DNA from: Synechococcus sp. PCC 7336
GTDB lineage: Bacteria; Cyanobacteriota; Cyanobacteriia; Thermostichales; PCC-7336
Direction: 5' to 3'
Assembly: GCF_000332275.1 (NCBI RefSeq)
Contig: NZ_CM001776.1
Span: forward strand, 1,969,268-2,033,267
DNA length: 64,000 nt
The notes under the pieces were generated by a model that was given only the letters and a program-made list of their open reading frames with translations, made no database searches and was not told where the DNA came from. Shown here one piece after another: positions 11,807 to 51,400 of this stretch. Positions within the stretch are counted from its first letter, which is position 1. Each line of letters starts with the position of its first letter. Made by a program: the position numbers and the translations under genes.

Positions 11807-14800
11807 TTAATCAGAGAACTCAAAGCGCAAAACCATCGGAATAGGTAACGCATTGTGTTCTACACGAGAGAACGAAAGATCGGCTCCGCTGTTGAACGTA
11901 ACGTTCCCTTTTGAGCGAATGCTTCCGACAAGTTGCGAGTTGCCATTGAAGGTGAAGTTACCGCGACTCAAGAATGCTCCACGTGTATCTGCAGCCCCAT
12001 TAAAGGTCATTTGCGATTGTGAGATAACCACAAGATTGTCTTCTGGGCCTGTTGAGGTGGTTGCGCCGTTAAACGTAATTGAGCCGCTATCGCTGCCATT
12101 GGCAAGCAATGTCGAGCCAGCAAACCTAGCCCCTCCGTTCATCCGAATCGATTTAGACGCAAGTACCGATAAGTTTAGGGATTGGACGTTCGCAAGGTTG
12201 ACACTGCCGTTGTTAGCAACTAACATCACTCCCTCAAGATGATGCCCATTGCTGTTGAAGTTAATATCGCCATTTTCCACAATGATGATGGTGTTGCGAA
12301 TTTCTACACCGTTGGGGATTCTTAGGCCACCCCGCTCAATGCGAACGACGGTTGGAGCTTCTGGGGTGCCAGCGGCGGGGAAGTGTGCATTCCAGTCATT
12401 GGCGTTATTGATAGGTGGTTTGTTGGGATCGATTGTAATCTCCCCTGCAGCACTCGGCAGGTGTTGCTCCAATTCTCCATTCAGGATCTCTGCGTAACTG
12501 GGAATCTCGACAATTTCCTCTTCCACCACCCGCGGCGGTACGAGGTTACCGTAAGGAGAATGGTTCGGGGCGTTAATGTTAGAGAAATTCGGTCCAACAC
12601 TAACCGCGCGATCGACCAGAATGTACTGCCCCCGATCGTCCAAAATTGGGTTGCCAGTTTCATCCCGCAGGATCGGTAATGTGGGCAAGCCATTGATGGT
12701 AAATCCCTGGCCACCGTATAGGCGGGCATCGTCTTCGGTTTGTAACAGATCGCCGTCATAGTCGCCCCCGCCATTAATCGTCAGGCGCTTTTCGGCAATT
12801 ACAGCAAAGTCGGACCTCAGTTCGGGGGCTGGAGTCAGTGCCAAGGTGGTGTGAATGGTTTGGCTGGTAATGCCGCCGTCTTCGTCTGTAACGGTGAGGG
12901 TTACTTCATAGCTGCCGGGTTCGGTGTAGGTATGGCTGGCGGCGATGCCCTCAACAGCTGCAGTCCCGTCGCCAAAGTCCCAGGTGTAAGTCAGGGTGTC
13001 ATCTCCCGGATCGATGGCAGCGGCACTAAAGGTTGCTGTTGCTGTGTTGTCGCCATTGTCGACAGCCTCAAAGCTCGTGATGGTGGGACTGACGTTCTCG
13101 ACCACAATCTCCAGGGTTTGAGCTGTGGAGAGTCCTGCATCGTTGGTTGCGGTTAGTGTAACGGTGTAGGTGCCGTCATCCTTAAAAATGTGTTCGACTG
13201 CATTGTTTGCCACAGGCTCCGTGCCGTCACCGAAGTCTAAGAAGTAAGTAATGCTGTCTGGTTTGGCATCGGTGGCGCGACCTGAGAAGCTGAAGCTGCC
13301 GCCTTCGAGCCCGAAGGTATCGCCAGCGAACTCTTCGACGGTAGGGGCAACTCGATTGACGGTGACTTCGAATGAAGTTTGACCAGTGCCGCCATCATCG
13401 TCTGTCACAGAGAGGGTGACGGTATAGGTACCTGCATTGCGGTAGATGTGGCTTGGGGCGAGGGTGCCGGTCGCCACCTCAGTCCCGTCGCCGAAGTCCC
13501 ACTCAATCGTATGGGTGTCGAGCAGGCCGGGGTCGGTGAAGCTGCCGTTGAAGGCCAAGGCAGAGCCTTCATCTACGGTCAGGTTTTGGCCTGCTTCTGC
13601 CATTGGAGCGGCGTTGTTGATGGCGATCGCCAAGGTTTCGGTGCTGGTGACGCCGCGATCGCTGGTGACGCTGAGGGTGACGGTGTAGTTGCCGTTGTCG
13701 CTATAGGTATGGGCGATCGCCGCTCCTTCCACGGGGGCGGTGCCGTCGCCGAAGTCCCAGAGGTAGGTGAGGTTGCTGTTGCCTGCGACTGTGGCGATCG
13801 CCTCAAAGCTCAGGGCTGTGCCTTCCTGCAGTTGTCCGCCGATGAGTACGTCTTCGATCTGGGGGGTGGCGTTAATGACTTCGATGGTGGCCACGGCAGC
13901 ATTGGAGAGGGTGCCGTCGTCATCGCGGACGATGTAGATGAATTCGTCGAAGCCGGTGTAGTTGCTGTTGGGGGTGTAGGTGACGGTGTTGTCGGCGTTG
14001 ATTTCGACGCTGCCGAATTGGGGACCGACGGCGATTTCGAGGCTGGTGGGGTCGATGCTGCCATCGCGATCCACATCGTTGGCCAAGAGGTCGATCGCCA
14101 CGGGGGTGTCTAGGGAGGTGGAGATGGTGTCGTTAGCGGCGGTGGGGGCTGTCGATGCTTCTGCCAGGATGGCGACGTTGTCGATCGCCACGGAGCCGTT
14201 GCGGCTGCCGAAGCCCAGTAGGTCGAAGTAGAGGGTGGCTTCGGTGCCTGCTGCTAGGTGACTGATGTCGATTTGGAGGGTGCGGGGGATGTTGAGGGCG
14301 ATCGCTTCGCCGGATTGGACTTCATCGACGAAGGTGACTTGCGAGCCGAAGTAGGCGGTGCCGTTGTGTTGCAGGTTGAAGAGGGAGTCGGTGTTGTTGA
14401 GACCGCTGGCGGTGTCGACTAGGGATGCGAAGTTGCGATCGAGTAGGGCGACTTCGAAGGCGTCGCCGGGGGCGAGAGTGTTGGGGTCGAGGTCGGCGGA
14501 GAGGAGATCGAATTGGAGGGTGGTGGCTCCTTCGGGGACGATCAGGGTTTGGGTGCTGCTGGCGAGGAAGGGGGACTGTTCTGAGAGGACGAGTTCGCCA
14601 TTGATGACGGCGATGTCGCCTCGGGTGTTCCAGCCAAAGGCGGGGGGGGTGGTGTCGGCAATGTTGAAGGTGCCGTTGGCGATGGCTTGGAGGGGGGTGG
14701 AGGTGAGGGGGGCTGTGAGGGCGAAGGTGTCGGTGGTATAGGTGGGTTGCGATCGTACGGCTTGGAGCAGTTGGATATCTAGAGCTGAGGGCAGCTCGCG

Positions 14801-17800
14801 GATGCCGGGGGTGAGGTAGGGGTCGAGGAGGTCGTAGGGGTAGAGGGTGGGATCGAGGTGGTCGCCGTTGAGGGCGACGCTCAGGTTGTCTGCGATGAAG
14901 AAGGATTCGCCATTGGTGGTTTGGATTTGGCTGTCGAAGCCTGCGTAGCCTTCGATGAAGCCTGCTAGGTGGGCGGTTTCGTGCAGGAGGACGGTGAGGA
15001 GGTCGTATTTGCCGTAGGCGAGGGAGTCAGGGGTGGCGGCAGCGGCAGTTTCGGTGAGGGAGGTTTTGAATTCGCTGTTGTCCCAGGGGGTGTCGTCGAT
15101 GAACCAACCGCGATCGTCGGCAGTGTGGTCCAACAAGATGAGTCCAGAAATCGGGTCGCCTGAGCTACCAAATTTAGTCAACTGGGCCTCGGCAATTTGT
15201 CCTTCTGGCAAATCGGTAACGATGAAGTCAACATCGAGAGGCGTATCGAGGGCTGGCGACCAGAGAGAAAGAGCACTATCGTAGCTAGTACCTATTGCAT
15301 TGGAATAAACCGTATGGACTTCAGGGAGAGACTCGAAAGAAACCAATTGAGGAGCTTTGCCCTGCTCGAGAGTTACAAGAATGGCATCCGAGACTTCTCC
15401 AGAGTTGATTTGAGAGAAATCAACCTGACTGGGTGCAACTTGCGTGGGATCGACTTGCGTGGAGCCGATCTGATATGCGCCAATCTCAGGTCCTGCAAGC
15501 TCCAAGGGGCTAGCCTGGAAGACGCTTACCTCAGAGGAGCCAACCTCCGCTACGCTCAACTCCAAGGAGCTGTTTTGTCCCGCGCCGTTTTCCGAGATGC
15601 CGATCTCACTCATTCCAACTTGGATAAAGCTGTGGCTATTGAGGTCCGATTCTGGGACACCTGCCTGGATCGCGCCTCCCTGAAAGGTATCGATCTCACT
15701 CGCGCCGTTTTCGAGCGCAGTAGCTTGGTTGGCGTCGAACTGCTCCAAGCCAACATCAGCGATCTGATTTTGAGCCAAACCGATTTGACTAGAGCTAACT
15801 TCAAGGGAGCTCGCGGTTTCGATGGTCGCTTCGTTCCCCACGAGATGCAGGGGTGCTTGCAGAAGGACACTGTCAAGCCCGATGGAAGCATTGAGGTTGG
15901 TCCTGTTTGGTTTGATTGAATCGATATCAGGCTGAGCTCTTAGGGGCGAGGAGAGGGGATCGCTCGGTGTCAGCGGCGTTCTGAGCTCTTCGGGAAAGTA
16001 ACTTAGCGATCTCTCGAGATCTTTCTCAAAGTTCTCTTCCAAATGCGTGAAGAAGTCCAAGCCAGTCAGAACTTCAATTTCATCGACGGTTCTCAGCCGG
16101 GGTGTCCAATCCTCAGCTTCAGGATCGAAGCCTGGGAGGGCAGGTTCATTTGGAATATCGACAGCAACGACACCAAAGAGATCATCGATAGATGCGTTGG
16201 AGAATTCTATTGGCGAAGTTCCTGGGTTATTGAAAATAAGTGCAACCTTCCAAAAATGTGAAGGTACATTGATTCCATTCTTGACAAAATCATCGTTAAA
16301 CTGAAGCAGCTCTTCATTCAGGCGACCCCTTGCTCCTGTGAAGACATAGATTTCTTTCCCTTCTTCAGCTAATTCTGTCAAACTATTTTCAAGCTTTTCC
16401 CAGATACCCTCATTTGCATCTCTAAGTTGCGGTAACTGATTCGAAAATGTAAATGTTGAGAAGAAGTCTTTATTCGATCGTTTTCTATCCTTAGCACGAG
16501 TCAAATGTCCTCGATTGAAGAGCGCACTGGTTACATCTTCTTCTCGGGTGAATCTCTGTTCTAACGAGATTAATTCGTCTTCGCCCCAAGCTACTCGGCC
16601 AGAAAGTTCTCGGCTCTTGTCATTAGGTAGCCATGATTGATTCAACTGATATGCTGTCCACTCAGGCTGTTTATTTGTTGGGTTGTAAGAAATAGTGAAT
16701 TGAGGCTTTTCAAGTAGGATATTGTTTGCTGACTTGGATGCTGACTGTTCGATGCCAGGCAGAGTATTCTTGCTGCCGAAGTTTACATTGTCAAGGTAAA
16801 TAGTACTATTGCCATCGATTATCTCGAAGCTAAGTGTTGCCGTCTGACCCTGCAGTCCCTCAGGAATTTGTAAATGGAATGTCTCAAAGCCAAAGGTTCC
16901 ATAGTCAATTTTTCCACGCTGCTGAGTCGCAGCAATAACTGCATCACCTGGCTCGAATATCGCTTTAGATAACTCAACTTCTGGCCAAAGTGGCTTTTCT
17001 AGATCGGGGTCGTTTAATATGCCCAATCGATACGATTTGCCGTCAATAGTTAGATCTACTCGAAGCTTTCCACCTTGAGGATCGGGGACATGCAGGTCAA
17101 ATCGTAAAATGTCTTCCTCAGGAACAATAAAGCGATTGTGGCTTATCTTGCTTCCCTTTCCAGGAAGTCTTAAAGCATAACTAGCTGAATCGACTGCCTT
17201 GTCGTTGGCATTGATATCGAGCTCGGACCATCTTACGAGATTTTGAGTGGCATTTAGAAGGGAACTGTCACTGCCATGAAACGCCCATCCTGGCAGCTCT
17301 GGCGAGATGAGTTGACGAATAGTGTTGTCGGGTTGGATTGCAACGTCAAAATCACCGTTGAACAGAACAGGAATAAAACTTTCCCCACGCAGGTCTTCTG
17401 TCAAGGTGTTGTCGAAGGTTACTGGCACGCGACCCACATCAGTTTCAGGCCGGTCATCGACTCCACCCCCTAACACGGAGTAGTACCAACCTTGGCCCAC
17501 CCCTTCTCGCAAATACCAGGGCTGCAGAATCTCCTGGATTGCGGCATCACTCACTTCTTCGAGAAAGGCTTCTAGTGCAAATTCATCGAAGCGATCGAGA
17601 ACCTGAACCGGTATGTTGCCTGCAAGCGAATTGAGTACTTCATTCAGCCCCAGATCGACAGTTCCCGCATACCAAGCCAAAGCTTGTAGGTGAGGACGTC
17701 CTCGGCGATCGTCAGAGAGATCCAAGCCATCGCGCTTAGTGTTGTTAGTATCTGCCAGCAACAATTCCAAGTCTGGCTGACCCAGGACTCTCCCTAGATC

Positions 17801-23800: not shown

Positions 23801-26800
23801 GTTGAAATCGGCATTCGCCAGTCGCCAGCCAAAGCCAAAGGTGCTGGAGTCGTCAGCCGTCAGAGAATCGTAAGCCCGCACCAGCTCGAAAGTCGTATCC
23901 CCAAGCTGCACCGACAGATCGGTTTCAGTGCGGCGGTACTGGCCGTCTTTAACTTGGCTGCTAATCTCAACCTCAATCTCGGCAATGCTGATGCGATCGC
24001 CAATATCGGTGGCCCGCAAGCGCAGTTGATAGAAGCCATTCTCCAGAGCGGCGGGGTCCAGTTGCGCTAGTGGGTCGCCACTAACGGTATCGTTGCCACT
24101 GGCAAGGGTGCGGAACTGGCTACTGCCCACTTCGGCAATTTCCAGCACCCATTCAGCCAAATTGCGATCGGCCACCGAGCCGAGGATATCGGCGGCACTA
24201 TCCAGAACTGCACCATCGAGTCCTGGGGCAAATGCCACAACCGGAGCTTCGTTATCTTCGGGATCGCGAACCAGCAAGACCGTTTCGGTGCGACCGACGC
24301 GACCGTCGAGATCGGTGGCGATCGCCTCCACCACAATCCGGCCGGGGGCAGCGGCGGTAAAGCTGGCCCGATTGCGATCGTCCACCACCAGCGGTTCGCC
24401 ATTCACCAGCACTTCAATGCTGGCAATATCAGCCAAGCCTGCCGCATTGGTGGCGATGGTGACCGTCTGACCGGGGAGAGCGGGGAAGCTGGGGGTGAGC
24501 TCGATCTCCACATCCGGCAGTTCAGGAGAAATCGCCACTCGCAGTTCAATCGAGGCTTCAGTCGTAAGGTCCCCATCCGAGACCGCGAAGCGCAGGACGT
24601 AATCCCCTGCTTGACCGGGGCTGGGGGTCCAGCTAAATTCGCCCGTGTTGGCATCGAGGCTGGCCCCTTCCGGTAGGTTGAGGGCGGAGTAGGTCAGACG
24701 ATTGTCCGCATCGGGGTCGCTGCCTTGCAGTGTCAAGCTGAGCGTTTCACCCAGCGCGATCGAGCGGGAACTGACCTCCAATTCGGGGGCGCGGTTGGTG
24801 TCTTCAATGGCGATGAAGACTTGCCGCGTATCCGTCAGCCCTTGGGAGTCGGTGACGGTAAATTCTAAGAGGTGAGCCCCCGCTTGGCCGAAGTTGGGAG
24901 TCCAGCTAAAGTCTCCCGTGCGGGGGTCGAAACTGGCTCCTTCGGGCAATGGCGTTACCGCTGAGAACAAGACGGGGTCGCCATCAATGTCTCCAGCCGC
25001 CAAGCTGAATTCCAGCAGCGATCCTTCCCGACCGGATTGGGCGGGGAGCGGAATCAGAACGGGAGCTTGGTTGAGATTCTCAACCGCGATCGAGATCGTT
25101 TCGAAGCTGCTGCTGTGGCCGTCAGTCACCCCAAAGATAATGTCGTTGTAGGTGCCCTGTTGCAGCAGGTTGGGATTCCAAGTAAGGGTGCCGCTGACGG
25201 GGTCGAAGCTGGCAGCGGCAGGTAAATTCTCCGCGCTGTAAGTGAGGGTATCTCCATCCGCATCGAAGGCGGAGAGTGCCAGCGTGAGGGTGTCTCCCTC
25301 TAGAACGCTGAGATTGCCAATCGGAGCCAGCAGCGGAGCTTGGTTGTCGGCGCGCACCGCCAGATTGAAATTCTGTTCGTCGCTCAGCACTTCAGCCGCA
25401 TCGCCATTGCCGCTGTCGCTCACCCGGATGGAGATCGCGTAATTCCCCAGATCTGCCTCGGTGGGGGTCCATGCAAAAATGGCTTTGCCGTAGATCGGCG
25501 AGGGGGTGAGGGTCGCTCCTGCAGGCAGACCAATCGCCTCGAAGGCGAGGGGATCTTCATTGCGATCGCGCACGTCCACTTCAAACTGCAGCGTCTCGCC
25601 CGCCACAGCCACTTTGTCGCCGATGTAGTCCAGCCGAGGCGGATCGTTGGGGGCATCCACCGACAGGATAAAGGTGAATTCATCACGATCGCGACCGTCG
25701 CCCGCCGTCAAAATAATGGGAAAGTCGCCGCTATCGGCATTGGCCGGGTCGAAGCGCAACAGGGCCGTACCGTCGCCGTTGTCGGTGAAGCTGGCAAAAT
25801 CGGGGATGGGGAAACCGGTCAGTCCGGCAGCACTGAGGGCGATCGCATCTCCATCGCGATCGGTGGCATTCACTGTCAGCTCTAAAACTTCGCCGCGAGC
25901 GATGGTCTGATTAGCAATGGCTTCGATTTCAGGGGCGCGGTTGGTATTGAAGACTGAGAGCGGGACTGTGATTGTGGAGGTTTGAATGTTGCCCGTACCG
26001 TTGCCATCGTCAGTGGCGGTAAAGGTCACCACATACTCGCCCGCATCCGTGAAGGTGGGGATCCAGACAAATTCAGCGGTCTCTGAATCGAACACAGCCC
26101 CATCTGGCAACCCTGTCGCGCTGTAAGTGACTGAAGGATTGCTGCCCTCTAGCAAGGAGAGATTGCCTCCCTGCAAGCGGTTTTGGGGAATGAAATCGGG
26201 ATTGTCCGGGTCTAGGGCGAAGGCACGTAATTCGATCCTTTGCCCCTCCTGCACCTGGAAGCCATCGAGATTGTCGAAGATGGGGGCGGCATTCACATTG
26301 AGAACTTCAATCGCCACCGTTTCCGTCGTGACAAAATCCCCATCGCTAACCGAGAACGGAATCTCGTGCAGACCGGCGTCGAAGAAGGTCGGAGTCCATT
26401 CAAACACCCCCGTGGCCGGATCGAGGGTGCCGCCGGGGAGCAAATTACTGAAGAAGAATAGCTCGCCCCCTTCCGGATCGTTTGCTTGCAATTGCAGGCG
26501 CAGGGGTTCCCCTTCTCGAACGGTGCGATCGGCGGGTCGAACGAGGCTGGGAGCTTGGTTGGTGGGGGTTACCGCTAGGACGATCTCTTGCTCGACTTGG
26601 GCGACACCATCGCTGGCGACTAATTGGAGGGTGTAAATGCCAGCAGCATCGTAACCGGGGGTCCAGGTTAATTGTTGCTGGACGGGGTCGAAGACTGCGC
26701 CAGGAGGTAGACCGTTAACCCAGAATTGCAGCGCATCCCCATCCGCATCTGTGGCCGAAATCGGCAGGTTCAGAGGGGCTCCTTCGCGACCAATCAGTTC

Positions 26801-38800: not shown

Positions 38801-41209
38801 CTTTTCGGCACCAGCAACGCCGGTATTGTTGGTTTCGTTGCTTTCCGTCTGATCTCTGAAGATATCGGCCTGCACCAGCAGGTTTGGGCGGCTAGCAGCT
38901 CCATCCGGCACAGTAATGGTGGTATTGACCGTGTAGCTCTCACCGGGAGCAAGCGAGCTGACTGGAGAGGCGATAGTCTTGACAAATGTATCTATATTGT
39001 TGTTGTTGTTAAATATGGTGTCGCTGGAGAAACGAATGCGATCGTCGGAGCTAGACAAGTCATAAGCGGTGACGCTGCCTTGGTTGGTGACGGTGTAGGT
39101 GAGCTCAAGCAAATCCCCTGGCGTAATGGGTCCGCCAGGAAGGATGACATCGGTGACGACAAGATCGGCAAAGGTGACGTTGGTCTGAAGAACGCCGGTA
39201 TTGTTGGTTTCGTTGCTTTCCGTCTGATCTCTGAAGATATCGGCCTGCACCAGCAGGTTTGGGCGGCTAGCAGCTCCATCCGGCACAGTAATGGTGGTAT
39301 TGACCGTGTAGCTCTCACCGGGAGCAAGCGAGCTGACTGGAGAGGCGATAGTCTTGACAAATGTATCTATATTGTTGTTGTTGTTAAATATGGTGTCGCT
39401 GGAGAAACGAATGCGATCGTCGGAGCTAGACAAGTCATAAGCGGTGACGCTGCCTTGGTTGGTGACGGTGTAGGTGAGCTCAAGCAAATCCCCTGGCGTA
39501 ATGGGTCCGCCAGGAAGGATGACATCGGTGACGACAAGATCGGCAAAGGTGACGTTGGTCTGAAGAACGCCGGTATTGTTGGTTTCGTTACTTTCCGTCT
39601 GATCTCTGAAGATATCGGCCTGCACCAGCAGGTTTGGGCGGCTAGCAGCTCCATCCGGCACAGTAATGGTGGTATTGACCGTGTAGCTCTCACCGGGAGC
39701 AAGCGAGCTGACTGGAGAGGCGATAGTCTTGACAAATGTATCTATATTGTTGTTGTTGTTAAATATGGTGTCGCTGGAGAAACGAATGCGATCGTCGGAG
39801 CTAGACAAGTCATAAGCGGTGACGCTGCCTTGGTTGGTAACGGTGTAGGTGAGCTCAATCACATCCCCTGGCGTAATTGGCCCGTCGGGCAACGCGACGC
39901 TACTCACCACCAGGTCAGCCTGATTCGATAGCGAATTATTCCCCTCGTTAATTTCGAGACGCTCTGCCAACGCATCCGTTACAACAAACGCAAACCCAAA
40001 GTCCCGCGCCACCTCGGGAACCTCGATATCGAGAGAGACATCATAGCTTTCTCCCGCAGCGAGAGGGCTATCTAAATTGACTTCGCGAGTCAGCCCGACA
40101 ACATCGCTACTATCCAGCACCGCATCACTCGAAAAGAAAATGCGATCGCTCCAATTACCATAAGCAGCCACCTCCCCCTGATTGGTCACCGTCCAAGACA
40201 CAGGCACCACCCCGTCCCACTGCCCCGGCTCGGGAACACTGAAAGAAGACACCACCAGATCGGGATCGGTGATATTCAGTTGAACGGCAACACTGGTGTT
40301 ATTGCCTTCGTCACTTTCCGCGATCGCATCGTCCGCATCCGCAGCAATCAGAACAAAATTGGCATTGCGAGCCGCTTCAGGCAGTTCGAGATCGAATTCT
40401 GCCGCCAAACGATCGCCCACACCGACAGTGACGCCAAGGGGAGTATCTCGGGTCGCCACCAAGACATCGTCGCTATCCAGCACCGCATCGCTAGAGAGGA
40501 AGAGGCGATCGCTCCACCCCGAAATCACCGCCGCACTCCCCTGATTTTCGACCTCCCAAGTAATTCGAACCGTTTCTCCCACCGTCACCGGTCGAGAGGG
40601 AATGCCAACCGTGGCGATCGCCAAATCCGCCTGACCGGCAACGGTCGCCACCTCAGTTGTGCTCGCAGTCTCGGTGCCGGTCACTTCGCCTGAATCGGTG
40701 CTGCCGCTATCCGTGACAACAAGATTCCCGTCATCTAGCGACGTATCAATGGGTTCGCTCAACGAAATCGCCGTGAAGTCGCTAGTCGTCCCAACAATGC
40801 TCCCGCCGCCATCGCCGCCCACCAGCAAGTCAGAAGTGGTGAAGTTGGTCGAAAACGAAGAAAAATCTGCCAGGAACTGATTTAGATCGAACAGTTGACT
40901 GCCATCGACCAGTTCCTCCCCCTCCGGCAAAGGCTCGGAGCCCGTGGGGAAATTGCTCCCCGGAGAAGTGGATGGCGCAGGCGAACGGGGAAAGATGTCC
41001 CCGTCGAGAGGCTCCAGCGGAGTCAGCACGAGTTCGAACTGGTCTATCTCCTCCTCGGCGATCGCGAGAGCCCCTTGCCCCACAAACGCATCAAACCCGT
41101 CAGGGCTCGACAGGGGCTCATCCAAAGACGCTTGGTCCAACAAAGAAACCGCTAAAGGGTCTCCCCCCAAACTTGAGGCGATTGTAGAGTCGTCAGGCGA
41201 CAATGGCAT
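11807..41209 (-). CDS. Giant 9,800-residue mosaic surface or exported protein (CARDB, Ig/cadherin-like, nuclease, peptidase, PKD)
   Basis: One unbroken frame. Order seen, with approximate residues: an acidic Pro/Ser/Gly-rich N-terminus (1-190) with no obvious signal peptide; 25 CARDB-type repeats of ~125 residues (195-3350), typically opening PDLVV and ending GEENNN-like; a PPC-like domain (3360-3560); a DUF7619/Fn3-like region (~3800-4150); a propeller-like region (4220-4500); an Ig/cadherin-like (He_PIG) array (4700-5580); an RHS-like segment (5750-6010); dockerin calcium loops (6133-6187); Big_2-like and TIG domains; a YVTN-type propeller (~6770-7240); an alpha/beta-hydrolase-like region with SFSRG (~7677); a carbohydrate-binding-like region (7970-8140); a NUC1-type nuclease domain (8170-8406); a pentad-rich linker; a HETAHLAGFIEG zinc motif (~8743); a tandem-95-like domain; four PKD domains (WDFGDGT, ~9110-9450); and a Gly/Asn-rich beta-solenoid-like C-terminus. 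CARDB and PKD are usual in large extracellular adhesins. The AT-rich 380 bp upstream probably holds the promoter. Confidence 0.9.
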   Translation of the reverse strand: MPLSPDDSTIASSLGGDPLAVSLLDQASLDEPLSSPDGFDAFVGQGALAIAEEEIDQFELVLTPLEPLDGDIFPRSPAPSTSPGSNFPTGSEPLPEGEELVDGSQLFDLNQFLADFSSFSTNFTTSDLLVGGDGGGSIVGTTSDFTAISLSEPIDTSLDDGNLVVTDSGSTDSGEVTGTETASTTEVATVAGQADLAIATVGIPSRPVTVGETVRITWEVENQGSAAVISGWSDRLFLSSDAVLDSDDVLVATRDTPLGVTVGVGDRLAAEFDLELPEAARNANFVLIAADADDAIAESDEGNNTSVAVQLNITDPDLVVSSFSVPEPGQWDGVVPVSWTVTNQGEVAAYGNWSDRIFFSSDAVLDSSDVVGLTREVNLDSPLAAGESYDVSLDIEVPEVARDFGFAFVVTDALAERLEINEGNNSLSNQADLVVSSVALPDGPITPGDVIELTYTVTNQGSVTAYDLSSSDDRIRFSSDTIFNNNNNIDTFVKTIASPVSSLAPGESYTVNTTITVPDGAASRPNLLVQADIFRDQTESNETNNTGVLQTNVTFADLVVTDVILPGGPITPGDLLELTYTVTNQGSVTAYDLSSSDDRIRFSSDTIFNNNNNIDTFVKTIASPVSSLAPGESYTVNTTITVPDGAASRPNLLVQADIFRDQTESNETNNTGVLQTNVTFADLVVTDVILPGGPITPGDLLELTYTVTNQGSVTAYDLSSSDDRIRFSSDTIFNNNNNIDTFVKTIASPVSSLAPGESYTVNTTITVPDGAASRPNLLVQADIFRDQTESNETNNTGVAGAEKPGSEVDLVIMGATIPEIAAFGQVVSVSWTVLNQGADTAFGSFLDGVYLSADAVLDSSDIQLRLADSASKTPLIPGDSYILSTEIIVPSDDGLDRPYLLFAADALDLQVETDNTNNVFALEHTFTNPDFVVSDISIPDLNAFGELVEISWTVTNIGEVTALLDRDDALYLSNDDIFDDSDILVSLKSVVEAPLAAGESRTLSATIRLPEGQEGFSHLLVFADRFNYQPETDETNNVSAIALQGVDLLVTDIEVPSLTNAGETFEVSWTVANRGTVAATGNGVDRLFISADDSFDAGDTLVVEVETGQLTPLEPGETYRLTREIAIPTGLNDRPYLFVVTDANNDRLEVNTNNNIRSIALNVLAPDLVVANVLAPARATWGETIEVEWTVANQGETAATANRTDRLYLSSDRLLDGDDIVLDSVDIATLLAAGGDSHTVRHSVDISTVDPTLEWYVLVETDANRDQVEADETNNTNTFAIDILAPDLSVTAGSVTGSAASGAEVTVDWTVQNLGDGAALFDWTDALYLSSDNIWDAADLRLSSSEFRALSLDAGADYSRSQTVTLPQTAAGAQYLLVRTDDLAAQPEGDEGNNTLAIALDIAAPDLAIAAVSAPTAATFGETVTVDWTVVNLTDIDALATWTDAIYLSDDAVWNPETDLLLGSQVSPQSLGAGGSYSNSLTVAVPSSLGAGSKYLLVVTDRDGAQGEVSTANNVEALALDVLAPDLQVSAIAAPSAATWTDRIDISYTVVNQGTGAALSTNIRDRIFLSTDAVFDSSDIFLGDVFVGDRTPLAPSESYVGEHTVTIPSVTPGDYFLLVQSDRSNQQAELDESNNVTAVGFEVLTPPHADLVVEAVSSSPTALSGSPLEVNWRVRNIGPNATAVGNWVDRLILSDDAMLDSGDVELARVNRSGSLAPDSSYTNSATVTLPNGISGDFYLFVETDVNNGVFEYLLEGNNVGRALDAIAIARSPDPDLQVTNISAPLTSLAGQSATVSWTVENGGTGPAGGNWIDRVYLSPDGSLNGAILLASVAQDADGAGHNGNYTASAQISIPAVTGDFRIVVVTDAGDQLFEGDGEGNNLAVADQSLQISSPDLVASLQSSPATAISGTAISLDWLVQNAGTGTALGNWVDRVYISSNAVFDGGDRLLGEVFRNAPVAVGDSYANSLTFDLPIELRGEQFLLVVADAGGTVLEVGGETNNVTATPIAIELAPFADLAVTEFFAPTLAVGDPAQIEVSYTVINQGSGTSNVDRWVDRIVASNDDIFGDGDDIVLATFERTGSLNGGDSYERIETLRLPPALEGRFHLFVQTDAGELVFENGLTDNNVLQADGAIDITPIPYADLIVSTVSAQQEADGRSLQLEWTVENQGIGLTDRSEWFDIVQLASDAAGQNIVQTLGIFERVGALDVGGSYQRALDVTLPNGLNGPFYVVVTTGRGANGLTSSVFEYLFEDNNSAVSDPFLVDFTPPPDLVVEDIVAPPLSFTSGQRIDLSWTVRNQGFGDAISAWTDTIYLQEAGNPTGSLIRLGSFSFANGLAAGQSYQRSEQFALPSTLQGLYRVVVETNATRSLYEADNADNNQLTDGTTLQIALPLRPDLQVSAIEAPTTISAGGTVSLEFEAINQGAVATSTPRWTDRVYLSLDNTISSDDVLLGSLGNVSALESGERYRAAIEGSVIPRRFRGQAFLIVETDASQQVDEGSREGNNIRVFETFVDPLPPADLVTGNVAAPDQAFEGTQIEVRYTVANLGLGETDRDSWTDQIWLTRDRDRPSAAAIFTSETNDILLRTITNSGSLAVGDSVERVVTVTLPEQITGEWFITAWSDAFDVVTEDTLSVNINPDDPNEFDSNNYSSTPITVLLTPPPDLVVTEVTPQLGVQSGEAFTVSWEVANLGQGSTDVDRWFDSVYLSDSPTLTNSSTRWFLGDVERRGSLAEGESYIASLTVDLSPGTDGRYVIIETNSHSRERVFEGPFDDNNVTAAIADVVQPLLPDLVVTDIEAPSANFSGEPVTIRWTVENRGDGAIGSGTSFWQDAIYLSPDPEFIADRATRLGFFTYAAPTALQAGESYQQERQIVLPRGIDGEFYLHAITNIDPTPEGRTPGATLSSTLPTQGTNDSVLQEYTIQAFEPQFNNLYSEAIPVTYYEPDLVVSQFQLPLEAPQSGQSIEISWTVTNDGNRDSRELAWFDRIYLSRDPSLDFQDRIVGDFRREGSLAAGDSYDRTEIIQLPDGIDGEFYLLAVTDALLVDRDDILVARPVPTDASIFFQFGDRQMGAVPEFQDEGNNLTAAPLTINLQPSPDLQVTRIDAPERVVTGQSFTITYEVSNLGTGDVPAAESGWRDLIYLSRDEFLDLQSDRYLGFQDRVGGLAVNESYEVTRSFNAPSALDGPFFVFVLTDPPEFDLDRDLFVGDVFEGPNELNNASPSDQPVIFELPPPADLQVRTIEIPPQAQTGEPITVSYTVENLGENAASGRWTDAIYVSDDAIWDVGDRLLGRVSRSGILDPDGSYSAELTADLPPLTPGQYRIIVRPDIFNQVYEAAGEANNRTPSADSLSATVPALQLGLPLEASLDSGEEQLYEITVAAGQTLQVSLDSASEAATNELFIRFGAAPTGILFDAASEGILAPDRSLVVPTTEAGTYYVLVRSQSQPSDDTPVTLLAETLPFGITDVVTDRGGDSQFVTFDILGVQFHPDAIAKLVRPGIAEYEPVRYEVLDSTHIRAIFDLTAAPHGLYDVQVTNPDAEAVVPYRYLVERAIEPDVAIGLGGDRVLAPGDTGTYSISVSSLTNIDTPFVHFQFGVPELGDNEFLLGLFSADALSITGIDELPFLTFASNLRGAPDGFGDDIPFASLVSDLNADGNILAPGFIFDLPTGNFAGQTFTVQTYAGLTDLLAIEPDALSDLLPDDEFKIAFQFPVTATATALTREEFIALQTEDALSLRDSILADETASPALTGLAADAEAWVAAYLGALEQAGYLRPEGEAAPIRSNPLVISLANALATGLLLGPSGEQILSDGDLVSFFEDVRRWYGHDAELIGNSTNPTLEAFDLGAIDDTALLSFNTFVPFGRARLDLPGLVEVPPPSFASVLNGVGLTTDRATIVGPLGTGTQGFVPADTALPYTVRFENAPTASSAVGEVRIVIELDEDLDPRSFRLGDLQLGDIQVNIPTDRGFFQGDFDFTASKGFLLRVSAGLDPLSNTASWVLQAIDPDTGEVLQAGDVGLLPPNTVAGDGAGFVTYTVLADADSPTGTEISSTARVLFNTAAPFDTAPVTNVVDAVAPTTSLNVTPLVAGGSDFLVEWEAVDDAGGSGVQHVTVYVAENGGDFSIWQRRTTDTSAIFQGEAGTDYEFLAIATDVAGNQEVADISAALPSDGSAVNLGAIDTIGSTTIDLDPAPIPTQASSNELFLEAQQNIPAADPLSRPSGFDRVVAPFDARSFATGFIESNAAIGPLAILALDNGSVIASGGANRGSLYRFDREGGEAGNPFVTLPHPIFQLALGANGSLWATTGGGALLQLNADTGEILAKFGEGITQSLAIQEATGLIYVSTADGIEIFNPATGGFTQFSRLRVGNLAFAPDGSLWAATWPDRGDIVRFDSQGRPERRLAYDAPIDSIAFGQQGSELEGLLFVSANDGVLRLVDLATLNQTAIATGGSRGDRVTTTADGRIFLSQSDQIDIISPRLAPQVTFTNPSDEAVVALPHGTLTVTFDRDIIADSIDRPESALNPANFQLVADSGEMFTPQSVAYEANSRTAFLEFGTVVPDIYELRIASTLASTAGIALGEEVVVDFTAVSDFLPFVDLNFANARSNRADGTVSFDVQLTNTANFDLQLPLALLLDPIQQTNGVPIGATFEAEGYYLVDLSESLVDGRLKAGESTIARTITVSNPDDLRVDFAAGLFSIPFVNEAPTFASDPVTTAIAGQPYTYLAVGADADGNAFSYLLLSGPDGLVVDAQTGLVSWTPTADSPAGVDVVLQVFDGRGGSSTQAFTIQVEGGNRAPVFDPLPTELIGREGAPLNLPISATDADGDALQFWVNGLPPGAVFDPVQQQLTWTPGYDAAGIYTLQLVASDGVAQVEQEIVLAVTPTNQAPSLVRPADRTVREGEPLRLQLQANDPEGGELFFFSNLLPGGTLDPATGVFEWTPTFFDAGLHEIPFSVSDGDFVTTETVAIEVLNVNAAPIFDNLDGFQVQEGQRIELRAFALDPDNPDFIPQNRLQGGNLSLLEGSNPSVTYSATGLPDGAVFDSETAEFVWIPTFTDAGEYVVTFTATDDGNGTGNIQTSTITVPLSVFNTNRAPEIEAIANQTIARGEVLELTVNATDRDGDAIALSAAGLTGFPIPDFASFTDNGDGTALLRFDPANADSGDFPIILTAGDGRDRDEFTFILSVDAPNDPPRLDYIGDKVAVAGETLQFEVDVRDRNEDPLAFEAIGLPAGATLTPSPIYGKAIFAWTPTEADLGNYAISIRVSDSGNGDAAEVLSDEQNFNLAVRADNQAPLLAPIGNLSVLEGDTLTLALSAFDADGDTLTYSAENLPAAASFDPVSGTLTWNPNLLQQGTYNDIIFGVTDGHSSSFETISIAVENLNQAPVLIPLPAQSGREGSLLEFSLAAGDIDGDPVLFSAVTPLPEGASFDPRTGDFSWTPNFGQAGAHLLEFTVTDSQGLTDTRQVFIAIEDTNRAPELEVSSRSIALGETLSLTLQGSDPDADNRLTYSALNLPEGASLDANTGEFSWTPSPGQAGDYVLRFAVSDGDLTTEASIELRVAISPELPDVEIELTPSFPALPGQTVTIATNAAGLADIASIEVLVNGEPLVVDDRNRASFTAAAPGRIVVEAIATDLDGRVGRTETVLLVRDPEDNEAPVVAFAPGLDGAVLDSAADILGSVADRNLAEWVLEIAEVGSSQFRTLASGNDTVSGDPLAQLDPAALENGFYQLRLRATDIGDRISIAEIEVEISSQVKDGQYRRTETDLSVQLGDTTFELVRAYDSLTADDSSTFGFGWRLANADFNLQTDVPLTGREELGVDSPLEAGSRLYLTLPDGDRVGFTFTPQAQSQLGVTYYQPAWTADDGVEYVLESVSAPLSRVGNRFFDLQTARPYNPANEGFEGFAYSLTAPDSTVYQLDADGSVTEQVSSDGTRLYFSDSGITSSTGDTITFIRDAAGRLEQAIAPNGSVVNYTYDDRGRLVSARNLQLGLASRYGYELDGQERLVLAAAPVGVSGGEGVDYGVTATTAPVIGDLGSAAQFTDGSVSGSLVAGEGDRYLLSLRDSELLSTATDFVLVGVEIDAAGVSPLLSGVAPLTLDTLANGTTFALFAMEAAGLHLLEVSGTGDYSLDFSIVGDVNLDGLVDGSDSQLLTAALGSAIGDGTYPVQLDVDRDGAIDATDAQLLGSNFGFVTNRPPVVSATSVLTHEDLEVRIALEDLAFDPEGDDVAFRAIDPANGTVLLDPTGEFAIFRPTDGFTGAATFTLVADDGFSAGSASISVEVSDAPLVNLSFVDRDLALAIGETGQLQVVGDFADQRGVLLDGDYLTFLSEDPTSAQVSELGQLTGLSAGTPIITASRGNLTAVTAVPIGEFEQRYVSLETPEEFSLALASFNGVIDLYPNTVTLLPDSTRQIYVNIDDPTFENEELILLPDEAQFFSSNGNVLQVDDRGLVTAIGTGFADITVIYGDTETVIPIAVQLPELNSSIIDSDGTAVTSANGSTILIGPNSLPEGTTVTIADLGAPDVPLPELDLEFLGGFELDFEGNALANPAQLVVEAPVHLGVGTRVLFMRLGELPDRTGALQPFWFQAEEGFVGEDGLIRTQSPPYPGVNYEGQWYFYADLNAPDFSAITDLIGRFFPDNEGTQDSLELLEAIQNNLPDVGTLEIRKGEVDIAFDIFNDFIGIGFGAIGSSIGTFLGGGLAGGVAEEAFGVAFPVPEAPIRIPTFSVASLEVVAIPAVGLPVVTPLDVRFDPDRGLVYDIDFQNFPASSESDPFGSPLIDATQFQIDSETGVPTVTLFGSGFETATSDTAVNFTAGDRTFAGNILSLSGDRIVVEVPDTVTIGTAEIEVIRTEQTNTVAGLPSPDPASFTSNTVDVNVDADRILGSLRFNDQIAVINPETQELFAQLPVGNSGIEDWPDSIAITHQGDRAYVTLNRTGQVALVDPAALRQVDVDPERWGTNAIDLPPGAAPTSIVIDEFDQYAYVADSRANFSGQTRIFVLDINPMSDAYNSVVETIYVGPASFGIEELAISGDGRYLFATAPGSNRRQERKASQILVVNIDRADRPQFGKSNSKSWRRQVDSIETPFGTTGISATPAPNTLVFTNQFDDARGYGVLSFTDEFDFFRVTQLEYVDLTLGLEHDFFDVNDAVSVKVTDDLEFGFVAAFNRPVVVEDLNDRNPFSGDIPAGSNVGIIRDPLGLTEGGPELVGATRPIPFGFTSDLVLSPDNRFLYVSYPGVALEQTDSTDLGFPSGSVFVYDVEAIRTAVEEFDGIDEAAGINAEEDLNGDDPGNSIDDLHEIPINDIVFPDIDTRAAFRIIEADPLRGQFVFGLDPELPDRAPILTGGSIRDLAISSDFLELNDVVLEAEDLTPTFTWDFDIPEGDVREVQLFLSTFDEGEGLLPWDQVVDLNDPNLLPGLSLAQKTDLLSERNLGFDDFNPYRVLNATWSRETGEWTIVTPDTELGALLQSTLPDLSIPSSNLEFTLPEELELTAEQTYYWAVRAVSDTDSEVETGRFETLPLSPRFDGDTFASVTVLTHGFTTANPSSGVTDPQLDIAAQITGNGGAIAIYQPNTGDWLQVDERGRVLSEQQPWEAFYGQPLVLLPSWLRNNESNIPDAGFTEAAADAIFTSLVQFDRSLGGSFRRTLNPTAIQDEQGNPLRTQGALFNSPLHLISFSRGTIVNSELAQRIATYYPKAGGPIGAGELRDFQFTTIDPHDFYQESLKFDLGPLGIVDFRDFFEPKVQVFEGVTFADNYYQTVPKPDDFTFTPLGRPLGTRLTESQIDPNGRYPSDAPGLQFPTDDLGRVLGQPDLELLLADTNNTKRDGLDLSDDRRGRPHLQALAWYAGTVDLGLNEVLNSLAGNIPVQVLDRFDEFALEAFLEEVSDAAIQEILQPWYLREGVGQGWYYSVLGGGVDDRPETDVGRVPVTFDNTLTEDLRGESFIPVLFNGDFDVAIQPDNTIRQLISPELPGWAFHGSDSSLLNATQNLVRWSELDINANDKAVDSASYALRLPGKGSKISHNRFIVPEEDILRFDLHVPDPQGGKLRVDLTIDGKSYRLGILNDPDLEKPLWPEVELSKAIFEPGDAVIAATQQRGKIDYGTFGFETFHLQIPEGLQGQTATLSFEIIDGNSTIYLDNVNFGSKNTLPGIEQSASKSANNILLEKPQFTISYNPTNKQPEWTAYQLNQSWLPNDKSRELSGRVAWGEDELISLEQRFTREEDVTSALFNRGHLTRAKDRKRSNKDFFSTFTFSNQLPQLRDANEGIWEKLENSLTELAEEGKEIYVFTGARGRLNEELLQFNDDFVKNGINVPSHFWKVALIFNNPGTSPIEFSNASIDDLFGVVAVDIPNEPALPGFDPEAEDWTPRLRTVDEIEVLTGLDFFTHLEENFEKDLERSLSYFPEELRTPLTPSDPLSSPLRAQPDIDSIKPNRTNLNASIGLDSVLLQAPLHLVGNEATIETASSLEVSSSQIGLAQNQIADVGLEQFDANQATALENGASEIDTFQGGAIQAGVPESDLNSHSFIQVGMSEIGISENGAGQNSSLELSVAEVGSSEVSVFQASPLELAGPEIGAYQIGSTQVDPTQVAPSQVDFSQINSGEVSDAILVTLEQGKAPQLVSFESLPEVHTVYSNAIGTSYDSALSLWSPALDTPLDVDFIVTDLPEGQIAEAQLTKFGSSGDPISGLILLDHTADDRGWFIDDTPWDNSEFKTSLTETAAAATPDSLAYGKYDLLTVLLHETAHLAGFIEGYAGFDSQIQTTNGESFFIADNLSVALNGDHLDPTLYPYDLLDPYLTPGIRELPSALDIQLLQAVRSQPTYTTDTFALTAPLTSTPLQAIANGTFNIADTTPPAFGWNTRGDIAVINGELVLSEQSPFLASSTQTLIVPEGATTLQFDLLSADLDPNTLAPGDAFEVALLDRNFASLVDTASGLNNTDSLFNLQHNGTAYFGSQVTFVDEVQSGEAIALNIPRTLQIDISHLAAGTEATLYFDLLGFGSRNGSVAIDNVAILAEASTAPTAANDTISTSLDTPVAIDLLANDVDRDGSIDPTSLEIAVGPQFGSVEINADNTVTYTPNSNYTGFDEFIYIVRDDDGTLSNAAVATIEVINATPQIEDVLIGGQLQEGTALSFEAIATVAGNSNLTYLWDFGDGTAPVEGAAIAHTYSDNGNYTVTLSVTSDRGVTSTETLAIAINNAAPMAEAGQNLTVDEGSALAFNGSFTDPGLLDTHTIEWDFGDGTEVATGTLAPSHIYRNAGTYTVTLSVTDDDGGTGQTSFEVTVNRVAPTVEEFAGDTFGLEGGSFSFSGRATDAKPDSITYFLDFGDGTEPVANNAVEHIFKDDGTYTVTLTATNDAGLSTAQTLEIVVENVSPTITSFEAVDNGDNTATATFSAAAIDPGDDTLTYTWDFGDGTAAVEGIAASHTYTEPGSYEVTLTVTDEDGGITSQTIHTTLALTPAPELRSDFAVIAEKRLTINGGGDYDGDLLQTEDDARLYGGQGFTINGLPTLPILRDETGNPILDDRGQYILVDRAVSVGPNFSNINAPNHSPYGNLVPPRVVEEEIVEIPSYAEILNGELEQHLPSAAGEITIDPNKPPINNANDWNAHFPAAGTPEAPTVVRIERGGLRIPNGVEIRNTIIIVENGDINFNSNGHHLEGVMLVANNGSVNLANVQSLNLSVLASKSIRMNGGARFAGSTLLANGSDSGSITFNGATTSTGPEDNLVVISQSQMTFNGAADTRGAFLSRGNFTFNGNSQLVGSIRSKGNVTFNSGADLSFSRVEHNALPIPMVLRFEFSD
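14700..15290 (-). other. Zinc-metallopeptidase-like domain of the giant protein
   Basis: The giant frame carries LLHETAHLAGFIEG (His near residue 8743), an HExxHxxGxxxG-type zinc site like that of metzincin peptidases. It is preceded by IVTDLPEGQIAEAQLT and DRGWFIDDTPWDNSEF, a layout seen in peptidase domains of large cyanobacterial and planctomycete surface proteins. The third zinc ligand is not a clear His or Asp at the metzincin position, so activity is uncertain. Confidence 0.6.
15314..15919 (+). CDS. Pentapeptide-repeat protein, antisense and in codon register within the giant gene
   Basis: The 201 residues from ATG 15314 read as a canonical cyanobacterial pentapeptide-repeat protein. 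An entry segment LLESYKNGIRDFSRVDL (about residues 18-34) is followed by ~25 A(D/N)LxX-type pentads such as LRGADLICANLRSCKLQGAS and YLRGANLRYAQLQGAVLSRA. A C-terminal segment KDTVKPDGSIEVG resembles the 'NTxMPDGSI' tail of the family. Such proteins fold as right-handed quadrilateral beta-helices of varied function. The gene lies wholly inside the giant minus-strand ORF, between its nuclease and peptidase domains, and its codons pair exactly with the antisense codons. All 28 leucine codons are CTC, CTG or TTG and no serine codon is TCA, so no stop appears in the giant frame. No clear ribosome-binding site or promoter is visible. Expression is uncertain; the gene origin is not seriously in doubt. 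Confidence 0.6.
   Translation: MDFRERLERNQLRSFALLESYKNGIRDFSRVDLREINLTGCNLRGIDLRGADLICANLRSCKLQGASLEDAYLRGANLRYAQLQGAVLSRAVFRDADLTHSNLDKAVAIEVRFWDTCLDRASLKGIDLTRAVFERSSLVGVELLQANISDLILSQTDLTRANFKGARGFDGRFVPHEMQGCLQKDTVKPDGSIEVGPVWFD
15990..16700 (-). other. DNA/RNA non-specific endonuclease-like domain of the giant protein
   Basis: Within the giant frame (about residues 8170-8406) the order of motifs matches NUC1-family beta-beta-alpha-metal nucleases. These are YQLNQSWLP, then NRGHLTRAKDR (the family's D-R-G-H box with Asn in place of Asp and the catalytic His kept), FSNQLPQ followed by NEGIW (the metal-binding Asn), IYVFTGARG, and FWKVALIF with VVAVDIPNEP and TVDEIEVLTGLDFF. The full family layout is therefore present. 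Whether the NRGH variant is active is not known from sequence. Confidence 0.75.
31150..40635 (-). repeat. Array of 25 CARDB-type repeats within the giant gene
   Basis: Counting the recurring opener (A/P)DLxV followed by GxxxxVSWTVxNQG, DRxxLSxDxxxDxxD, LxxGxSYxxxxxxxLP and a terminal ENN motif gives 25 units of about 125 residues. Most units are clearly diverged from each other. Three near-identical adjacent units (38817-39870) are the exception. CARDB is a beta-sandwich domain common in long bacterial surface proteins. Confidence 0.85.
38817..39870 (-). repeat. Near-perfect 375-bp tandem triplication within the CARDB array
   Basis: Copies begin at about 38817, 39192 and 39567, exactly 375 bp (125 codons) apart. 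Copies 1 and 2 look identical across the unit. Copy 3 differs by a single base in a synonymous position near its start (GTTACTTTC for GTTGCTTTC) and then diverges after about 39836. The unit is one CARDB repeat, so each copy preserves the frame. The repeat period also produces matching shadow ORFs on the other strand. Confidence 0.93.
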
Positions 41210-48415: not shown

Positions 48416-51400
48416 ATGGCTTCTCCACCTCCAAATGCAGGCGATCGCCTACCGCCAGATTGGGCGTTACAGGAACCCTTGGGCCTCAATAACCCACTGC
48501 TACCGCCCAGACCGTTGGGAGATCGCACGGCGGCACTCCTGCTAAAACCGCTCGGCACGATTCAGTTAGCCATCCTCGATCCCGATTTGGCGAGCAGTTC
48601 TGCGCTACCCTCCGAGCGATCGCCTGTTCCCCCACCTCCGCCTCCCATCGCAGCCACCCCCACAGATTCCGTTCGAGCCGAAGTCACTGTTAGCGATCGC
48701 GCAAGGGTTCCACAACAGAATCGCCCCAGTTCCAGCGCAGAAAGCCCTCCAGCCCTCCAACGATCCTCTGCTACACCTGCTCCTGGCTCCGAGCTCACGC
48801 CATCTAGCCCCCCACAGAGTTCCTCCCCTCCGCCAGCCCGCGAATCGTCTGCTCCTCTTCAGGGGCGATCGCCTCAACCCTCTGCCTCAGTCGAGCCCAC
48901 TTCCCCGCTTTCACCCAGTCAATCCCCCTCTACCGCCTCAGAGCGATCTCGGGAGGTTTTGCAACGGTCCGAGATGGTTGGAGAATCCTCTCCTGCCAGC
49001 CAACAGACTCCCATCGAGCCAAGTTCTAGCCAACCCTTTTCTCCCCAGCGGATGGGCGAATCCCAATTGCCGCTGCAAGCCAAGCTGGGTTCTTCAGAGA
49101 CTTCAGTCGCGATCTCTGACACTACCGAACAAGTAACGCCCAGTGCTGCCGCCAGCTCGCCTCCTGTAAGCTCGACAGGCGATCGCTTTCCCAGCTCTCC
49201 CCAGCCTGAAGCCCTCTCGACTGAAACCCTACAGCGATCGCCCGATGCGAGCGGCAGCCAAAGTCCCCCCGGCAACTCTCCCACAACTGCACCCCCCATG
49301 GATGCAGATATAGCAACAGCGAACCGAACCGAAGATCTATCTACCTCCGATCCCTCTGCAGAAGCAACTCCAAGCAGCCCTTCCAGCACCTGGTCTGCCC
49401 AGTTAGAAACCTCCTCCTCCTTCCCCCGCGACTCCGCGCCACCCCCCGAACGCTCCGCTCCCTCCACCCAGCTCCCCCCGAGTTCTCGTCCCTCCCAAGC
49501 CGATCCCTCGACAGTGGTGCAACGGCAGCCTGCCTCTAGTCCCCTGTCCCCTCATCCGCCAGCACTCGTGCCGACACAGGACGGCGACTCATCCGATACG
49601 GCGACTCCCCCGCTCGCTCCCTCTGCCAGTAACGCACCTGCAACTTCGACCGAGAGCTTCCCAACAGAGGGTTCCTCTGCGATCGCCGAACCTCTCCAAC
49701 GCTCCGCACCTGCCCCAGACTCCCTTCGCGAAACTGAGCTTGGAGAGGTTGCCCTTGGTCCGTCCGAGGTTATCCCTCCGACAGTGCTTCAGCCCAGTCG
49801 CGACTCAACCGCACAACCCGATCCGCTCGCCAAGGCTGTGGAAGCAGGGTTGGGCGTCTCCTCAGATCCCTCTATTCAGGCGGCTCCGATACCTGATGAC
49901 ACGAGCCGGACTGAGGCAGGGGGCAGGAGCAGTTTTTCAATAGACCAGTCGCCCGTTCCCAGTGGAGAAACAGGGGATCGGACAACTCCCCAGATTCAGA
50001 GTTCCGCTTCAGAAACATCTGTGTCGGTAGATCCCCCTGCCGCTCCCGAGTTCGGCACCATTCAACGTCAAAACTCTACTGAACTATCCGCCGCGTCTTC
50101 CCCATTGCCGGACTCCGACCGAGCCGACAGCCTGACAACTGAGCCGTCCAGCCCAACGGTTTCCTCGCGAGAGAGCGGCGATCGCCCCTTATCCCAGTCC
50201 GAAAATCTCGCCCCTCAGGTCGCTAAATTCCAAGATTCAGTCACTGCTACTCCCGAACTCGTTCAACGACAATCTGCCGAGCCACCCACAACACTTCCCC
50301 CATCGGCAGACAACACCGATCTACCCAGCAGTTCTCTGACCCAGAGCGATCGCGCGATCGCTGCAGAGGCTGGAGAGTACCCTCTCCCCCCAATCGAATC
50401 TCCCTCTGCCCGGGGTGCTGAATCTTTAGAGACAGCCGCAGTTTCCACTCCCGAGATCGTTCAACGCCAATCGGCTCCCGAGCTATCTAGAACACCCCCT
50501 CAATCGCCGGTTATTTCCGAGGCGATCGACAGTTCTTCATCTGCACAGACCAGAGCGATTAGCGATGTAGAAGCAGGAGGCGATCGCCCTCTTGCCCCAA
50601 CCGACTTCCCCACTCCAGAGGTGACTGCTGCGGCAGATTCACCCTCCAGCTCAGAAACCATTCAACGCCAAGACTTTACAGGCCCACCCGAGTCCCCTCA
50701 ATCGCCCGATCGTGCCGATGTTCCCGACAGCACTGCACCCGAAGCGTACCTCCCGACAGTTGATTTGCCAGGAGGAAGCGATCGCCCTCTTGCCCCAACC
50801 GACTACCCCATTCCAGAGGTGACTACTTCGGCAGATTCACCTTCCCTCTCAGAAACCATTCAACGCCAAGACTTTACAAGCCCATCTGAGTCCCCCCAAT
50901 CACCCGATCGTGCCGATGTTCCCGGTAGCAGTTCACCCGAAGCGTATCGCCCGAAAGTTGATTTGCCGGGAGGAAGCGATCGCCCTCTTGCCCCAACCGA
51001 CTACCCCATTCCAGAGGTGACTGCTTCGTCAGATTCACCTTCCAGCTCAGAAACCATTCAACGCCAAGACTTTACAGGCCCACCCGAGTCCCCTCAACTG
51101 CCTGACAATGCCGATGTTCCCGGCAGTACTTCAGAAGCATACCGCCCGACAGTTGATTTACCGGGGGGAGGCGATCGCCCTCTTGCCCCAACCGACTACA
51201 ATCCCAATCCAGAGGTGACTGCTTCGTCAGATTCACCTTCTAGCTCAGAAACCATTCAACGCCAAGACTTTACAGGCCCACCCGAGTCCCCTCAACTGCC
51301 TGACAATGCCGATGTTCCCGGCAGTACTTCAGAAGCGTACCGCCCGACAGTTGATTTACCGGAGGGAGGCGATCGCCCTCTTGCCCCAACCGACTTCCCC

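Follow-up and report, generated by a model that had tools for sequence, protein, structure and literature searches.

A pentapeptide-repeat gene encoded antisense, codon on codon, to the linker of a giant cyanobacterial gene: a conserved dual-coding locus and candidate toxin-immunity module

Can one stretch of bacterial DNA encode two proteins, codon on codon on its two strands, and be kept by selection for both? The question is raised by a locus of the cyanobacterium Synechococcus sp. PCC 7336. The DNA analysed, hereafter the window, comprises 64,000 nucleotides of contig NZ_CM001776.1 (positions 1,969,268 to 2,033,267). Its minus strand carries a giant gene of 9,800 amino acids (11807-41209) and, wholly inside it, the plus strand carries a gene for a pentapeptide-repeat protein (15314-15919; 201 amino acids plus the stop codon), a predicted immunity or antidote protein. 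The initial annotation, made from the letters alone, had described a complete pentapeptide gene lying antisense and in exact register within an uninterrupted giant frame. Both statements hold, as the plus-strand product matched the Pfam family PF00805 with E=2e-37 (126.7 bits vs. a cutoff of 20.2), the codon boundaries of the two frames coincide and the giant frame is open throughout 11807-41209. The sequence analyses reported here point to an old, conserved dual-coding locus whose pentapeptide protein is fairly probably the cognate immunity protein of the adjacent nuclease.

Two genes in one register across the cyanobacteria

The 201-residue product also matched Pentapeptide_4 (1.2e-16) and Pentapeptide_3 (1.8e-11), and it matched NCBIfam pentapeptide models, the latter under their own cutoffs. 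Its sequence matches in the Protein Data Bank (PDB) include HetL (3du1), NP275-276, Alr5209 and MfpA. AlphaFold2 (AF2) predicted, with a predicted local distance difference test (pLDDT) score of 94.3, an N-terminal helix followed by the right-handed quadrilateral beta-helix, with five-residue strand periodicity, that is typical of pentapeptide proteins; Foldseek matched this model to HetL, NP275-276, AlbG, EfsQnr and MfpA. The ATG at 15314 is plausible as the exact start of the gene.

On the opposite strand, the giant protein comprises CARDB repeats, Ig-like domains, an RHS-like stretch, a NucA-like nuclease, a linker, an HExxH peptidase-like region and PKD domains (Pfam). The linker (residues 8431-8632; 15314-15919, minus strand) is, by translation, the exact codon-register antisense of the pentapeptide gene. 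It starts shortly after the nuclease domain and ends close to the peptidase-like region, is rich in Ser, Gln, Ile and Val, and has a five-residue periodicity. Given that second codon positions are shared in this register, the pentad A(D/N)LxX of one protein is mirrored as an S-Q/E-V/I periodicity in the other. Over most of the linker AF2 predicted disorder, with pLDDT of about 20-30 and no secondary structure, in a model of a 690-residue giant segment that was mostly of low confidence and was used solely for this point. The nuclease, a predicted toxin, is a DNA/RNA non-specific endonuclease domain (PF01223, E=9e-38; 16037-16732, minus strand). Its catalytic motif is kept, as NRGH in the window copy and as xRGH in 17 of the 20 relatives examined. 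The metallopeptidase-like region (LLHETAHLAGF; 14747-15313, minus strand) belongs to the conserved scaffold and is 49-51% identical to its homologues (alignment A1).

It must be noted that eight other long antisense open reading frames (ORFs) inside the giant gene matched no Pfam family above its cutoff. Openness alone is therefore uninformative, a caution that the initial annotation had itself expressed. An antisense ORF of the giant gene at 25340-25885 (plus strand) gave a sub-threshold UbiD match (E=0.0012), which is probably due to chance.

Relatives were first sought in cyanobacterial genomes with the peptidase-like region alone, a query that excludes the pentapeptide gene. This search retrieved giant homologues in other families, and an antisense pentapeptide ORF stood at the same place in the four best of them; neither the linker nor the antisense ORF was present in a more remote giant homologue that lacks the nuclease. 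A scan of 84,980 species genomes yielded about 40 cyanobacterial loci, nearly all with the antisense pentapeptide ORF, from which 38 non-redundant pairs were obtained, the window locus included. They belong to several orders, with hosts such as Nostoc, Calothrix, Richelia, Plectonema, Xenococcus, Chamaesiphon, Leptolyngbya and members of the Acaryochloridaceae, among others. Five additional pairs were located on plasmids, several of which are predicted to be conjugative. In all 38 pairs the codon register is exact, the giant frame is open over the whole overlap, and the start and the entry motif M..AEELLxRYAAGERDFSGVDL are shared. A PDG tail is usual in the antisense genes, as is a GGAG/GAGG-like site located 6-12 bases upstream of the ATG. 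Wherever the nuclease is intact the pentapeptide gene was found, and it is missing from the loci, mostly non-cyanobacterial, that have the peptidase in an intact frame and no nuclease. The initial annotation had proposed to judge the pair by homologous linkers lacking antisense pentads; this comparison, run on the relatives, did not refute it.

The same results bear on how the arrangement arose. For the window, the initial annotation had offered either an inverted insertion of a pentapeptide gene captured as linker or coding on both strands. A recent insertion in one genome would draw on an abundant family (65 pentapeptide matches in this genome), yet it is hardly credible when relatives throughout the phylum share the arrangement at the corresponding position, and a strain-specific event is ruled out by the relatives. 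The other alternative is strongly supported, as both frames are under selection in dozens of genomes, and capture of an antisense pentapeptide gene is a plausible ancient origin of the locus.

The existing annotation conveys little of this. Most of the plasmid records inspected annotate the giant gene alone, one the pentapeptide gene alone and none both, and the pair thus exposes an annotation blind spot. In the records NZ_CP040298.1 and AP018293.1, for instance, the annotation gives one of the two genes, be it the pentapeptide gene (WP_256872023.1) or the giant one, a coding sequence of 34.8 kb.

Selection on the two frames

If both frames are functional, codon choice in one should respect the other. 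In the window copy, all 28 Leu codons are CTC, TTG or CTG, with no TTA or CTA, and TCA is used for none of the 13 Ser codons, in agreement with the avoidance of giant-frame stops that had been claimed at first reading. When the pentapeptide protein was recoded with the codon usage of the genome's own pentapeptide genes, 5.8±2.2 antisense stops were expected and none was observed (P=0.002). In the same recodings 9.7 Arg residues were expected in the giant protein against one present (P=0.0004), and 39.6±4.1 Ser, Gln and Glu residues against 63, a value reached in 0 of 20,000 recodings.

We also compared the antisense genes with 37 pentapeptide genes that stand free elsewhere in these genomes, among which a decayed copy (L124) was counted. 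Free-standing genes contain 3 to 49 antisense in-register stops each, and the only three apparently free-standing genes with none were in fact additional copies of the pair. The synonymous codons that would give the giant protein a stop, a Cys or an Arg are avoided in the antisense genes, unlike in the free-standing ones: TTA plus CTA amount to 0 vs. 31%, the Ala codons GCA (giant Cys) and GCG (giant Arg) to 1.9 vs. 21.8% and 4.3 vs. 17.0%, and the Thr codons ACA and ACG to 2.9 vs. 24.2% and 3.2 vs. 15.8%, respectively. The choices among Asp, Asn, Glu and Lys codons, which are conservative for the giant protein, shifted little and serve as an internal control.

These data bear on the view that the pentapeptide gene alone is functional, chance or base composition having kept stops out of the giant frame. 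Such a view could appeal to the predicted disorder of the linker and to the weak constraint on its residues (see below). It is very improbable, however, in light of an open giant frame in 38 of 38 loci, of the depletion of synonymous codons that would create a stop, a Cys or an Arg and not of the near-neutral ones, and of the conserved nuclease and peptidase domains that flank the linker in one frame. L124 provides a complementary observation. In this decayed cassette the pentapeptide frame is open, five in-register stops interrupt the giant frame and the peptidase is frameshifted; it thus illustrates, in nature, what happens when selection on the giant frame is relaxed.

The converse view, that only the giant gene is functional and the antisense pentads are a mirror image of its five-residue linker repeat, was addressed by recoding in the other direction. 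With expectations taken from the codon usage of the giant genes outside their linkers, 178.6 antisense stops should occur in the linkers and none is present. When giant codons were randomised synonymously, about half of the pentapeptide profile score persisted, because middle bases are shared, so the mirror effect does account for part of the pattern. Nevertheless, at 32 of the 38 loci the real antisense protein outscored 100 of 100 recodings, which contained about 3-13 antisense stops where the real sequences have none. Additionally, the start, entry motif and tail are conserved, and changes that alter only the pentapeptide protein are the rarer ones. A mirror-image artefact is thus rejected, and the view that relies on it is highly improbable. 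A chance ORF is ruled out by the profile score, the conservation and the recoding tests.

A comparison of substitution rates in both frames had been suggested in the initial annotation. Single-base changes in five close pairs were assigned to four classes and normalised by opportunity. The rate was 0.071 for changes silent in both proteins (pSgS), 0.062 for those silent in the pentapeptide protein only (pSgN), 0.014 for those silent in the giant only (pNgS) and 0.009 for those silent in neither (pNgN). Per opportunity, changes that alter the pentapeptide protein and are silent in the giant thus occur 4-5 times less often than those of the opposite kind, and omega was about 0.14-0.20 for the pentapeptide protein and about 0.6-0.87 for the giant linker. 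By these rates, purifying selection on the pentapeptide protein is strong, while the linker residues are weakly constrained and can vary within limits set mainly by stops and composition. The AF2 models are in line with this, the antisense product being predicted to fold and the linker to be disordered. Dual coding, with the DNA under selection in both frames, is in our judgement well supported by these comparisons.

The nuclease-pentapeptide cassette and a putative immunity function

What the antisense protein does is suggested by a feature missed at first reading, namely that nuclease and pentapeptide gene move as a unit, a sign pointing to a toxin-immunity module. Pentapeptide proteins with no more than 29-50% identity can lie beside peptidase-like regions that are about 77-87% identical, and similar pentapeptide proteins (71-88%) are found next to peptidases that share only 57-68% identity. 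Across 25 loci, Mantel correlations were r=0.15 between pentapeptide protein and peptidase and r=0.05 between nuclease and peptidase. The weak congruence in the first comparison led to the idea of a cassette and to the test on the nuclease, for which the correlation with the pentapeptide protein was r=0.54 (0 of 5000 permutations). In a sliding analysis the correlation with the pentapeptide protein rises at the nuclease domain and ends at the pentapeptide start. Exchange of a cassette within an otherwise conserved scaffold is shown by these sequence comparisons, and the joint movement of nuclease and pentapeptide gene, which rests on a few clusters, is suggested by them.

Orphan cassettes, in which the pentapeptide gene is complete while nuclease and peptidase are cut, were found in L056/L084, L073, L128, L144, L146 and other loci. 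In L056/L084, L073, L128 and L144 several cassettes occur in tandem per genome, resembling the orphan toxin-immunity arrays of contact-dependent inhibition (CDI) and Rhs systems. A dispersed element resembling a miniature inverted-repeat transposable element (GTTGGGTTTCGTTCCTCAACCCAACCTAC and variants) borders several orphan cassettes on their 5' side, with sites near the 5' edge of the cut cassettes in L068, L070, L071, L083, L099, L128 and L144, and is absent from most intact loci; it may mark insertion or recombination points.

Immunity is inferred from the exchange of the cassette, the partner kept in orphans, its constant presence with the nuclease, the precedents among pentapeptide proteins and the acidity of the product, since antisense pentapeptide proteins carry -4.0 charges per 100 amino acids vs. 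-1.2 in free ones (p=0.0024). The mechanism that we propose is as follows. One strand encodes the linker, predicted to be disordered, of a giant multidomain protein that is probably secreted and has a NucA-like nuclease; the opposite strand, in exact codon register, encodes a pentapeptide-repeat protein predicted to be stably folded. A disordered linker tolerates a sequence dictated by a folded beta-helix. Nuclease and antisense gene form one exchangeable cassette in the conserved scaffold, and the pentapeptide protein would neutralise the nuclease in the producer, perhaps by DNA mimicry in the active-site groove. We consider the immunity function moderately probable, and slightly less so a phylum-wide toxin-immunity system whose immunity gene is written, codon on codon, opposite the linker of the toxin itself. 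Were this the case, every exchange of a toxin cassette would necessarily bring its antidote along and the linker could not be deleted without loss of immunity, a new way of tying toxin to antidote.

As to secretion, the giant gene of a Calothrix plasmid is closely followed downstream by a gene for a toxin-secretion ABC transporter (L153, 14672-16570), hinting at type I secretion.

Several observations weigh against this explanation. The covariation of pentapeptide protein and nuclease comes from few recognisable clusters and vanishes for pairs with pentapeptide identity below 0.5. The two are physically adjacent, and their co-transfer could reflect the position of recombination instead of function. 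The nuclease is internal in the giant protein and not C-terminal as in classical polymorphic toxins, and it is likewise acidic overall. Finally, the Shine-Dalgarno-like site upstream of the window copy (ttgga) is weak. A simple charge complementarity between the two proteins, both being acidic, was considered and found unsupported.

Some of these points could also fit a reading in which dual coding is real and the pentapeptide gene provides a chaperone, a secretion helper or a regulator of the giant protein, or acts partly through an antisense transcript, and rides with the nuclease simply as its neighbour. The roles of pentapeptide proteins are indeed varied (HetL, Qnr, and TagAB associated with the type VI secretion system; PMC3942780). 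We nevertheless regard this possibility as rather unlikely. The peptidase, which borders the pentapeptide gene just as closely on its other flank, does not covary, the gene is present with every intact nuclease and absent where intact-frame relatives lack it, and a purely RNA role is excluded by the strong amino acid constraint on the pentapeptide protein.

Two further observations in the window concern other sequences. At 38816-39865 the giant gene contains three near-identical direct repeats of 300 nt, spaced 375 nt apart. They are tandem CARDB units, and their identity of 99-100% suggests that duplication or gene conversion took place recently. Outside it, an ORF of 1,761 amino acids (48416-53701, plus strand) matched no Pfam family at E<1e-4.

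Comparison with known systems

Polymorphic toxin systems (CDI/Rhs/Maf; Zhang et al., 2012, PMC3482391) have been described with a C-terminal toxin domain, and their immunity genes have been sought in same-strand operons. The words "pentapeptide" and "antisense" do not occur in the main text of that review. The present loci resemble these systems in a large conserved scaffold with an exchangeable nuclease toxin domain, a covarying partner gene and cut or tandem orphan cassettes. They differ in that the toxin at the extreme C terminus and the downstream immunity gene on the same strand are not seen here. Instead, the nuclease occupies an internal position, with peptidase-like and PKD domains after it, and the putative immunity gene lies on the opposite strand, wholly inside the toxin ORF and codon on codon.

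NucA and NuiA of Anabaena are a secreted sugar-non-specific nuclease and its dedicated protein inhibitor. A cyanobacterial non-specific nuclease with a dedicated inhibitor, here putative, is common to both cases, but NuiA does not belong to the pentapeptide proteins, and its gene is not known to lie antisense inside that of the nuclease.

McbG, MfpA, AlbG and Qnr share with the antisense protein the pentapeptide beta-helix fold, predicted in our case. AlbG is a resistance factor. These proteins act on gyrase, whereas the target proposed here is the adjacent nuclease domain, and to our knowledge their genes are ordinary and non-overlapping. McbG is a pentapeptide immunity protein that shields the producer from its own toxin (PMC6795089), and MfpA mimics DNA (PMC10886550).

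The existence of long antisense overlapping genes in bacteria is disputed, the reported examples being few and mostly young. The antisense genes reviewed in PMC7457138 (laoB, ano, aatS) are described as typically younger than the genes that embed them. They have in common with our pair a protein-coding ORF embedded antisense to another gene. In the open-access literature we found no report of an antisense pentapeptide/giant-linker pair; as far as could be found, the ingredients (antisense overlap, pentapeptide protein and exchangeable nuclease cassette) are known and their combination is new. Unlike laoB, ano and aatS, the pair described here spans a phylum, encodes a known fold and bears a quantitative signature of selection in both frames, and with its many natural replicates it lends itself to studying how a single DNA can serve two proteins.
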